Origin: Candidatus Colwellia aromaticivorans
GTDB taxonomy: Bacteria; Pseudomonadota; Gammaproteobacteria; Enterobacterales; Alteromonadaceae
Direction: 5' to 3'
Length of the DNA stretch: 64,000 nucleotides
Assembly: GCF_003333305.1 (NCBI RefSeq)
Contig: NZ_QOLD01000069.1
Span: 1-64,000 of the forward strand
Position 1 is the stretch's first letter. Each line of letters opens with the position of its first letter. The notes under the pieces are model-generated. The model searched no databases, was not told where the DNA came from, and saw only the letters and a list, made by a program, of their open reading frames with translations. Shown one piece after another: positions 23,853 to 43,165 of the stretch. Both the position numbers and the translations under genes were made by a program.

Positions 23853-24179
23853 AATGCTTATACTTGACCTTAAATATATTATTTAAATAATAGTGATAAA
23901 ACAGCGCTATTTTGCCATAAAGGTAGACTGAGTAGTAGGTATAAATAACAGTTAACACACTTGCGTGTTATAACCGCTGTTTGAAATTATAGTTATGATA
24001 GATTACATAAATGATAGAAAGCCAAATAAGGGGGTTTTGATTCAACAATTGACCAAGTTGCATTAAAATTAGGCGAACACGTTTTTTTTAAAAAAAAAGG
24101 TTTGACTGGGCTGACGCAACTCGGTAATATCCGCATCCGTTGAAAGCAGCTAATATTTAGTTTGATTTTTAACGGATGT
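23853..24179. other. folD-tRNA gap
   Basis: The first 230 bases hold no recognisable gene; a long frame on the minus strand here runs into the tRNA and is not credible. An A/T homopolymer stretch at about 24082-24099 precedes the tRNA promoter. Confidence 0.5.
24102..24130 (+). promoter_or_regulatory. tRNA operon promoter
   Basis: TTGACT (24102-24107) and TAATAT (24125-24130) are 17 bases apart and are followed by a GC-rich CCGCATCCG discriminator, typical of stringently controlled stable-RNA promoters. The expected start near 24137 gives a leader of about 43 bases before the first tRNA. Confidence 0.75.
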
Positions 24180-24256
24180 CGGTGATTAGCGCAGCTTGGT
24201 AGCGCACTTGGTTTGGGTCCAAGGGGTCGCAAGTTCGAATCTTGCATCACCGACCA
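24180..24256 (+). tRNA. tRNA-Pro(UGG), copy 1
   Basis: A 77-base cloverleaf with CGGTGAT/ATCACCG acceptor stem, D-arm AGCGCAGCTTGGTAGCGC, anticodon loop TTTGGGT (anticodon TGG) and T-arm GCAAGTTCGAATCTTGC. CCA is encoded. It is identical to the copy at 24710. Its 3' half is duplicated immediately downstream. Confidence 0.96.
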
Positions 24257-24434
24257 CTTTTTCTTTCTAGAATATTAGAAAGTTCAAGTCTTGGTTTGAG
24301 TGTCGTCAAGTTCAGTCGAAAGTTTGAATCTTGCATCACCGACCACTTTTTCTTTCTAGAATATTAGAAAGTTCAAGTCTTGGTTTGAGTGTCGTCAAGT
24401 TCAGTCGAAAGTTTGAATTTTTCATCACTAACCA
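24257..24434 (+). repeat. Two 89-bp tandem units carrying tRNA-Pro 3' remnants
   Basis: Units 24257-24345 and 24346-24434 differ at only a few bases. Each starts with CTTTTTCTTTCTAGAATATT, which contains a 7-base hairpin CTTTCTA/TAGAAAG. Each then carries a degenerate anticodon arm (CTTGGTTTGAGTGTCGTCAAG) and ends with a copy of the tRNA-Pro 3' end. The first end, GAATCTTGCATCACCGACCA, is exact; the second (GAATTTTTCATCACTAACCA) has decayed. The D-arm and 5' acceptor strand are missing, so neither unit is a tRNA. They lie inside the tRNA transcript. Confidence 0.9.
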
Positions 24435-24482
24435 CTTTTTTATTCTTTAGAATTTTAAAGTAAAGCTTTTGTAGGTAAATGT

Positions 24483-24559
<77 letters not shown>

Positions 24560-24589
24560 TACTAAAAAGTAAATGTAAAAATGTATTAT

Positions 24590-24666
24590 GGTGGCTATAG
24601 CTCAGTTGGTAGAGCCCCGGATTGTGATTCCGGTTGTCGAGGGTTCAAATCCCTTTAGCCACCCCA
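24590..24666 (+). tRNA. tRNA-His(GUG)
   Basis: A 77-base cloverleaf. The encoded extra G at position -1 (GGTGGCTATAG) faces C73 in CACCCCA, as required for tRNA-His. The anticodon loop ATTGTGATT contains GTG, and the T-arm is GAGGGTTCAAATCCCTT. CCA is encoded. Confidence 0.96.
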
Positions 24667-24709
24667 TCTTTATTTCATTACATGCCAATGTAGTGGGAAT
24701 TGTGAAAAT

Positions 24710-24786
24710 CGGTGATTAGCGCAGCTTGGTAGCGCACTTGGTTTGGGTCCAAGGGGTCGCAAGTTCGAATCTTGCATCACCGACCA
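24710..24786 (+). tRNA. tRNA-Pro(UGG), copy 2
   Basis: Identical over all 77 bases to the copy at 24180. It ends the cluster; the next bases, CTTTCTTTATTTCTTC, resemble the start of the 89-base unit after copy 1 but are not repeated. Confidence 0.96.
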
Positions 24787-25033
24787 CTTTCTTTATTTCT
24801 TCTTTAAATATTCAAATATCCAAATGTATTTTTTGGTGTAATGAAAAAAAGTCAAAATTTCAATCTGTCATCATTGACCAATGACTTTATTTTCTCTAAA
24901 AAATCAACCTCTCGATTGAACCCTGTCATTTTCAAAGTATGGGCAGTGACTCAGAACAAATACTTCTTTTATTTTTCATTAATATCAATAAATACATCAA
25001 CTAAATTGAAATGCATGCAGTGGCTTTGATTAC
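24787..25033. other. Gap after tRNA cluster
   Basis: AT-rich sequence with no recognised gene. A 62-codon frame at 24841-25029 lacks a ribosome binding site and resembles nothing known, so I do not call it. No convincing terminator is seen after the last tRNA. Confidence 0.4.
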
Positions 25034-31578: not shown

Positions 31579-31924
31579 TTTTTATACGAGAAAAGTTGCT
31601 TTTTGATATAAATCATTAAAAAAGGTTAAAAAAGGTTAAAAAAGTCAAAAAACTTGTGAAAAATAGTAATTAAGGCTTTTCAAACGTTGAAACTATGGTA
31701 AGTTAACTACGCTTATATCGCTAGACCCCTTGTATATCATGCATAAAGCAATATATTTAGGAGAGCTAGCACAAAGTATTTTTCTAAACTCTACGCTTGA
31801 AGTTCAACAAAAGAAATGATTTTACCTAGAGTATATAATTTCTACAGGACGAGCTTTTATTAAACCCCTTATTGAGGGAAGTAAAAATAGCGTTGTAATA
31901 ATAACAATTGAAGGGGTATACACT
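31579..31924. other. lon-hupB gap
   Basis: An AT-rich leader. Three A-rich units AAAAAAGGTT / AAAAAAGTC run in tandem near 31619-31650. A TATAAT at 31834-31839 could be the hupB -10 box, but I find no matching -35. No gene or RNA is recognised. Confidence 0.4.
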
Positions 31925-42869: not shown

Positions 42870-42870
42870 T

Positions 42871-42990
42871 CGTCCCTCGGTGCTCCGTTCGTCCCTCGGT
42901 GCTCCGTTCGTCTCTCGTGTGCTCCGTTCGTCTCTCGTGTGCTCCGTTCGTCTCTCGTGTGCTCCGTTCGTCTCTCGTGTGCTCCGTTCG
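42871..42990. repeat. 20-bp minisatellite after pspC
   Basis: Four exact tandem units of GCTCCGTTCGTCTCTCGTGT (42901-42980) follow two 19-base variants (CGTTCGTCCCTCGGTGCTC type). A partial fifth unit leads into the CTTCGAC repeat. It starts two bases after the pspC stop. Since 20 is not a multiple of three, reading frames through it are artefacts. Confidence 0.9.
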
Positions 42991-43165
42991 TCCTGAGCCA
43001 GTCGAAGGAAGCCAGTCGAAGGAAGCCAGTCGCCCTTCGACTGTTCGTTCCTCACGCTCAGGGTAAACGGTATTTCCCTATTTCCGCTTGTCCTGAGCTT
43101 GTCGAAGGGTCGAAGGAAGCCTGTGGTACTTCGACTGCTCGTTCCTCGCGCTCAGCATGAACGGT
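42985..43165. repeat. CTTCGAC/GTCGAAG inverted repeat cluster 2
   Basis: The same palindromic family as at 22853. TCCTGAGCCAGTCGAAGG, then three CCAGTCGAAGGAAG-type 14-base steps, CCTTCGACTGTTCGTTCC, TCCTGAGCTTGTCGAAGG, and a decayed last unit ending AACGGT at 43164. The following 140 bases up to ycjX contain nothing recognised. Confidence 0.8.

Follow-up and report, generated by a model that had tools for sequence, protein, structure and literature searches.

Why does a Colwellia-type marine bacterium carry, between two tRNA genes, two tandem tRNA-Pro copies that lack their front? The locus lies in a window of 64,000 nucleotides, the whole stretch of DNA that we analysed, from Candidatus Colwellia aromaticivorans. 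It contains cysS, folD (minus strand), the tRNA operon Pro-Arg-His-Pro, tig, and clpP, with gene names taken from a reading of the translations and tRNAs from ARAGORN. The operon and its surroundings contain the following features.

24102..24130, plus strand: promoter-like site TTGACT-17-TAATAT upstream of the tRNA operon (sequence pattern)
24180..24256, plus strand: intact tRNA-Pro(UGG), first copy (ARAGORN, tgg; RF00005, 63.9 bits)
24257..24345, plus strand: unit 1, 89 nt; leader with a hairpin at 24263-24282, core at 24291-24345 with an exact tRNA-Pro 3' end (repeat searches; fold z -2.44)
24346..24434, plus strand: unit 2, 89 nt; leader as in unit 1, core at 24380-24434 with a decayed 3' end, 4/20 mismatches (repeat searches; fold z -3.49)
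24435..24461, plus strand: third-leader remnant, covered by a third direct-repeat copy (family D1, 24404-24461, 76% identity)
24483..24559, plus strand: tRNA-Arg(UCU) (ARAGORN, tct)
24591..24666, plus strand: tRNA-His(GUG) (ARAGORN, gtg)
24710..24786, plus strand: intact tRNA-Pro(UGG), second copy, identical to the first (ARAGORN; direct-repeat identity)
24787..24880, plus strand: strongly decayed unit 3' of the second tRNA-Pro; 5 mismatches in the last 20 nt, motif not found (3'-end scoring; fold z -0.40)

An earlier note on this DNA had described an intact tRNA-Pro(UGG) followed by two 89-nt hairpin-bearing units, and ARAGORN, Tandem Repeats Finder, and a direct-repeat search bear this out. 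Tandem Repeats Finder reports a period of 89 over 24226-24440 (score 388, with 2.4 copies and 95% matches); in the direct-repeat search, the repeats are spaced 89 and 89 nt apart, and the two 89-nt copies are 98% identical. The leader hairpin, CTTTCTA/TAGAAAG, is located at 24263-24269/24276-24282 in unit 1 and at 24352-24358/24365-24371 in unit 2. The 55-nt core is composed of an 11-nt anticodon-arm segment, 13 nt foreign to the tRNA, the T-arm region, the acceptor 3' strand, and CCA, and the 5' part of tRNA-Pro is missing from it. In agreement with the note, the last 20 nt of unit 1 are identical to those of the tRNA, and those of unit 2 are decayed, with four mismatches. The "degenerate anticodon arm" that it saw holds for one tRNA segment, TTGGTTTGGGT, present in the window as TTGGTTTGAGT with one mismatch; the rest is sequence foreign to the tRNA.

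Neither ARAGORN nor RF00005 calls the units as functional tRNAs, the four intact tRNAs being the only ones found in the window. No intrinsic-terminator-like site is observed ahead of tRNA-Arg, and the units likely lie within the tRNA transcript. The promoter-like site is weak evidence alone, with six such sites in the region against 3.5 expected from shuffling; in several relatives, CGGTAATATCCGC likewise precedes the first tRNA-Pro. The third-leader remnant, together with the decayed unit that has its end at 24880, suggests an array formerly larger or more widespread. An assembly artefact is an unlikely source of the arrays, since they also occur in one-contig genomes (G021, G229, G196, G279, and G290). 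Elsewhere in the window, tandem repeats are found at 42870-43032 (a 20-nt unit repeated 6.2 times and a 14-nt unit repeated 2.6 times) and at 31616-31652 (TTAAAAAAGG, repeated 3.8 times).

Within the genus, the unit is present in 12 of 39 genomes: 11 were found by a one-unit search, in which a match had to begin at or before query base 14, well within the non-tRNA part, and one (G030) by covariance model R1. Most of these genomes are drafts, so the 27 in which no unit was found are not surely unit-less. Copy number ranges from 0 to 6 across relatives, and leaders differ by lineage. In 20 mapped stretches, up to six units lie directly 3' of tRNA-Pro(UGG), both in the Pro-Arg-His-Pro operon and at a second His-Pro locus. 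The units repeat every 89-90 nt in G000, G015, and G006, every 112 and 128 nt in Colwellia ponticola (G008), and every 131 nt in G021. Copies within an array are near-identical; the leaders vary from one genome to another and among the loci of a single genome, and the cores are alike, with a mean column identity of 86% over 24 of them (alignment A1).

A search of 395 genomes of the family, 24 of which were searched again under laxer filters, places tRNA-Pro units in at least ten genera (g1, g8, g9, g18, g19, g26, g28, g31, g40, and g52). At 57 tRNA-Pro loci, chosen for their matches and thus not a random sample, TTGGTTTGGGT occurs within three mismatches in 98 of 112 scored unit 3' ends, or in 97 of 111 without a tRNA piece at a contig end of G005, which was excluded from later counts. 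Several of the 14 ends without the motif bear an rtT-type insert. A purine follows TTGGTTTGGGT in 92 of 97 units, at a position where the tRNA has C, and the segment that replaces tRNA sequence, in most cases 12-19 nt in length, varies from genus to genus. The T-arm and 3' end match the host's own tRNA-Pro (CGCAGGTTCAAATCCTGC in g18, CACAAGTTCGAATCTTGT in g9), the last 20 nt of which are copied exactly in 45 of the 112 units.

A pattern scan of 84,980 species, uninformative on motif conservation because its pattern includes TTGGTTTGGGT, returned 50 stretches, 27 of them with a tRNA-Pro at most 1.5 kb upstream and two more being Colwellia contig ends. The remaining 21, in other bacteria, have no tRNA within 1.5 kb upstream. 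The tRNA-linked matches come from Colwellia, Cognaticolwellia, Thalassotalea, Pseudoalteromonas, Arsukibacterium, Alishewanella, Rheinheimera, and Alkalimonas, and from MAGs labelled only Alteromonadaceae or Gammaproteobacteria; the scan revealed a tRNA-linked copy of this exact Pro form in no other named group. A literature search on titles and abstract openings returned no paper on the Alteromonadales units, which does not imply their absence in print. In two stretches, tRNA-Arg looks interrupted downstream of the Pro units, with group I intron matches (RF00028, 62 and 74 bits) at its expected position (L035 2806-3020 and L091 999-1187).

The occurrence of the same architecture in at least ten genera, with different leaders, makes the simple slippage duplication suggested earlier too simple an explanation. 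We favour, with about even confidence, a birth-and-death array of truncated tRNA-Pro copies that would be co-transcribed and discarded as an rtT-like hairpin by-product under weak constraint. This reading draws directly on the sequence of the units, their distribution, their host-following 3' ends, and modest support for a hairpin. The array would consist of 5'-truncated tRNA-Pro(UGG) copies in the transcribed spacer of the Pro-Arg-His-Pro operon. We infer that a tandem tRNA gene duplicate lost its acceptor 5' strand and D-arm and that its anticodon arm was then remodelled. Intact tandem tRNA-Pro copies, the likely raw material, are found in G051, G131, G282, G005, and G014, and the unit of Alishewanella tabrizica (G259) is less truncated, retaining the D-loop end TTTTGGTAGCGCAC.

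Unequal recombination would afterwards have altered copy number; taking place mostly at identical tRNA-Pro 3' ends, it would also keep the unit ends like those of the host tRNA. No 5' remnants of tRNA-Pro are observed in the 57 loci, and this one-sided 3' survival may reflect a single ancestral truncation, not many independent events. For g9, g18, and g31, the recurrent purine after TTGGTTTGGGT and the similar segments (ACTCT...) favour common descent over recurrent birth of units from tRNA-Pro.

The predicted folds of units 1 and 2 have energies of -20.9 kcal/mol (z -2.44) and -20.4 kcal/mol (z -3.49), both better than those of shuffled sequences. In the long hairpin predicted for unit 1, TGGTT, GTG, and CAAGTTCA form the strand opposite the copied 3' end and its CCA. 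A g8 locus (L055) folds likewise (z -1.99), and units located 3' of a last tRNA-Pro do not stand out (z -0.87 in L037, -0.89 in L038, and +0.46 in L076). Across 22 distinct units from the first-Pro site in g1, g8, and g26, 86.5% of the cells of the long hairpin are paired, against 84.6% after shuffling (9/500), and ten cells are changed on both sides against 4.9 (2/500). Covariation is 0.156 against 0.126 (6/500), and five pairs show both-side changes (31/500 shuffles); this shuffle control leaves the relatedness among the 22 units in place. Slid controls pair at 23-66%, and RNAalifold retains only six pairs in the 22 orthologues, at -2.7 kcal/mol. Support for the predicted long hairpin at the first-Pro site class is thus modest.

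Other candidate structures were rejected. As a family-wide structure, the long hairpin does not hold, the pairing of the segment with the T-arm 3' strand being equalled in 654 of 1000 shuffles across genera. An anticodon-type stem is weak across genera (13/1000, with rows that are not independent) and unsupported in the 22 orthologues, and the T-stem is 86.3% paired, no better than shuffled. Among the leaders, a CCAA/TTGG hairpin is overrepresented: it occurs in 7 of the 32 leader clusters, with 0.78 expected (0/2000), and all seven lie in g1 or g8 arrays 3' of a last tRNA-Pro.

The evidence for selection on the units is mixed, and their divergence points to weak constraint. Candidates poor in both halves of the core were removed from this comparison. 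Across the 64 distinct units of Colwellia/Cognaticolwellia, divergence is 0.148 in the 28 nt upstream of the T-arm, against 0.216 in the tRNA-derived 27 nt. Selection of units by the downstream half gives halves that are alike (0.148 and 0.150; 52 units), and selection by the upstream half gives 0.131 upstream against 0.214 downstream (61 units). Between genomes, the 28 nt diverge by 0.196, a figure lowered by the use of only the best unit per genome, against 0.293 at tig 4-fold sites, 0.441 in leaders, and 0.508 in shuffled leaders. The best-unit value is below the tig 4-fold divergence in 102 of 136 genome pairs; these are drawn from the 153 pairs of 18 genomes by a filter that dropped the pairs of one genome, apparently G006. 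The slower change of this 28-nt part, which as a whole is not tRNA sequence, relative to the tRNA-derived part and to tig 4-fold sites suggests some constraint. Compared with the genomes closest to the window by tig, the core shows no clear slowdown relative to 4-fold sites (0.18 vs 0.12 for G024 and 0.14 vs 0.16 for G016), and the decayed copies in these two genomes have cores that diverge from that of the window at roughly the pace of those sites. These decayed copies, together with the presence of the unit in only 12 of 39 genus genomes, argue against an important role.

The same data bear on a possible but doubtful alternative, in which the units are rtT-like precursors of functional small RNAs: the operon transcript would be cut, and a hairpin RNA with UUGGUUUGGGU and AAGUUCAGUC would persist and pair with RNA or bind protein. 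Conservation of the non-tRNA part of the core is compatible with such a role, although the halves diverge alike (0.148 and 0.150 in 52 units) under 3'-half selection. Similarly, the fold z-scores of the window units (-2.4 and -3.5) fit a stable RNA, but the structure is not common to site classes or genera. The anticodon-arm motif occurs in 98 of 112 units chosen by their 3' end, and in Actinobacillus, sRNAs of the RtT family are reported upstream of tRNA genes for Asn and Lys (PMC4986893). Set against this, the unit was not found in 27 of 39 genus genomes and is decayed in relatives.

The earlier note had also proposed that the units act as decoys for 3' maturation nucleases and that a comparison of relatives might show varying unit number with a retained CCA end. 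Unit number does vary, from 0 to 6, but the CCA end is not specially kept. The three CCA positions, of 20 scored, account for 19 of the 106 mismatches found in 34 decayed units, where an even spread would give 15% (p = 0.41); CCA itself is thus unprotected, and special selection on it was rejected. A decoy role towards CCA-related enzymes or the nucleases that mature tRNA 3' ends is therefore very improbable: CCA is unspared in decayed units and predicted to be paired in the window units, and the exact last-20-nt copies in 45 of 112 units, which speak for decoys, are explained by concerted evolution.

Another reading, which we hold to be unlikely, is that the units are processing or transcription elements: U-rich runs and leader hairpins in the spacers between tRNA genes would fix where RNases enter, or arrays at the operon end would form Rho-dependent termination zones before tig. 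Many arrays do come after the last tRNA-Pro, but others lie mid-operon, where termination would deprive the transcript of Arg, His, and Pro, and the mid-operon array contains no intrinsic-terminator-like site. The leaders often start with CTTTTT or CTTTCT, like the tRNA-Pro trailer, and a CTTTC..GAAAG hairpin recurs 3' of the first tRNA-Pro in g1 and g8; yet in many relatives the operon is without any unit.

By our reading, Pro units retain tRNA sequence from the anticodon arm onward, and the units of Lys, His, and Arg from close to the anticodon, as might be left by integrative elements attaching between the anticodon loop and the 3' end of a tRNA. An attachment scar should, however, retain the anticodon 3' strand, which is replaced in the units. 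The units are moreover short and tandem with a regular period, and no integrase-like ORF is seen by eye in 22.5-27.5 kb, so that we give scars of this kind hardly any credence.

Returning to the birth-and-death array, we infer that the units are transcribed along with the operon. At the first-Pro site class, they would form the leader hairpin and a longer hairpin, the 5' arm of which would pair with the copied T-arm/acceptor 3' strand and CCA, making the copy unlike a maturable tRNA end. The units would be excised during maturation of the flanking tRNAs and mostly discarded as an rtT-like by-product RNA, probably with no strong function. Even as a mere by-product, the array is a clear case of tRNA gene birth-and-death with one-sided 3' retention.

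Other tRNAs of the same genome were sampled in 20 fetched stretches containing 53 tRNAs by ARAGORN (62 tRNA matches genome-wide). Five of these stretches carry a 3'-end repeat outside a tRNA (at most 4/18 mismatches), from Lys(ttt), Met, Leu(tag), and, in two near-identical contigs, Arg(acg); 5' remnants are present in two stretches (Asn and Arg(ccg)). The phenomenon is thus not Pro-specific, nor strictly one-sided for other tRNAs. Two pseudo-tRNA-Asn copies in this genome (L140, 642 and 800) have an insertion, CTCTTTAT, in the anticodon loop, and the first has an extra insertion in its 3' part, ATAAAGAG, complementary to CTCTTTAT. In G015 (L034), two units 3' of tRNA-His copy the 3' part of that tRNA, with the same kind of replaced segment.

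The rtT repeat has been regarded as an oddity mainly of one E. coli operon. The likeness to its layout noted earlier stands: units with a tRNA 3' terminus recur in relatives, some of them at the same tRNA-Pro with an rtT-homologous T-loop insert. In E. coli K-12, the rtT unit consists of T-arm sequence from tRNA-Tyr, its T-loop split by an insertion of about 65 nt, and ends in ATCCTTCCCCCACCACCA. Its 5' arm, GGGGAAGGAT, is complementary to the 3' end of the unit (ATCCTTCCCC), a pairing present in the Rfam consensus. RF00391 recognizes four E. coli units at 132.9-137.5 bits and has no match at E<=10 in 24150-24950 of the window. The structured T-loop insert (GTTCGA^..GTA^ATC) is absent from the window units, where the T-loop TTTGAAT is uninterrupted. 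Having neither the insert nor a match to RF00391, the window units are insert-free kin in architecture and not members of RF00391.

In G015, the last core at tRNA-Pro has an insert at the same T-loop place as E. coli rtT, and its alignment with the E. coli insert scores 41 (shuffled mean 15.8, sd 2.8, maximum 27 of 300). Two other G015 inserts score 32 and 39, above all of their own shuffles, and one from G210 scores 28, equal to the best shuffle. Those of G025 and G173 are not above shuffles, and the G173 insert aligns full-length with that of G015. Such insert-bearing Alteromonadaceae units, found at tRNA-Pro and other tRNAs, share the tRNA-3'-end design and differ from the window units in their T-loop insert; some of them occur at the same tRNA-Pro (L034, L066, L089, L120, and L121). 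At E<=1, RF00391 does not list the insert-bearing Pro stretches L034, L047, L066, and L089.

At E<=0.1, RF00391 matches 31 of 118 family genomes, in 22 of 52 genera, five of these genomes exceeding the gathering score. Of 14 named controls, E. coli alone has a match. Twenty fetched stretches (L095-L114) contain 37 RtT matches, 36 of them downstream of a tRNA and one at a contig end. Nineteen of the 37, in 14 stretches, close with a copy of the local tRNA 3' end (at most 3/18 mismatches; Lys 7, Glu 7, Ser 4, and Asp 1), and the other 18, including those beside tRNA-Arg, show no local 3'-end copy. Of the 25 insert-bearing units that have a 3'-end copy, four being E. coli paralogues, 16 carry a 5' arm whose best fit among six is the 3' end of its own tRNA (12 of 21 without E. 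coli). On these matches, RF00391 looks far wider than tyrT. The association of RtT with other tRNAs is partly known already, since the Actinobacillus report (PMC4986893) places sRNAs of this family upstream of the genes for tRNA-Asn and tRNA-Lys. A further report likens rtT to BIME-type attenuators of Enterobacteria (PMC2965389).

We also observe rtT-type inserts in other contexts. By our reading, a tRNA-Glu-like sequence is broken by one in the T-loop (L108, around 1346), and a tRNA-Ser-like 5' part after the D-loop (L101, around 563); the insert may thus move on its own. Five dispersed relatives of the insert occur in the genome under study (L115-L119; contigs C68, C59, C14, and C8), on contigs without a tRNA match. 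At least two of them (L115 and L116) have similar flanks, a possible MITE-like element.

A broader interpretation is an Alteromonadales class of tRNA-tailored repeat RNAs, of which rtT would be a member. The class would supply feedback or decoys specific to individual tRNAs, and in the Pro units the anticodon-loop segment UUGGUUUGGGU would do the work. This class would comprise units with and without the rtT-type insert beside many tRNAs, many with their own tRNA's 3' end and often a matched 5' arm. We regard this interpretation as improbable. Independently of its fate, the presence of insert-free and insert-bearing units side by side in many marine bacteria, at several tRNAs, offers a natural series for the study of origin, structure, and any function.

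Some known systems come close to this array. Giroux et al. reportedly described, in 1988, a repetitive tRNAPro-tRNAHis gene cluster in Photobacterium phosphoreum; the likeness lies in repeats within a gammaproteobacterial Pro/His tRNA operon. Spacer RNAs of tRNA precursors, such as 3'ETS-leuZ, resemble the units as possible by-product RNAs of tRNA maturation; they are not known to be repeated or to carry a copy of a tRNA end. With the rtT repeats, or RttR, of the E. coli tyrT operon, the window units share tandem units 3' of a tRNA gene, each closing with the 3' terminus of that upstream tRNA and CCA. The E. coli units have a 5' arm able to pair with the copied 3' end; in the window-type units such a pairing is predicted by the folds and modestly supported in the 22 orthologues, is weak by RNAalifold, and does not extend across genera. 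The two differ in that the E. coli units contain a T-loop insert of about 65 nt, whereas the window units have no insert and instead carry an anticodon-arm segment.
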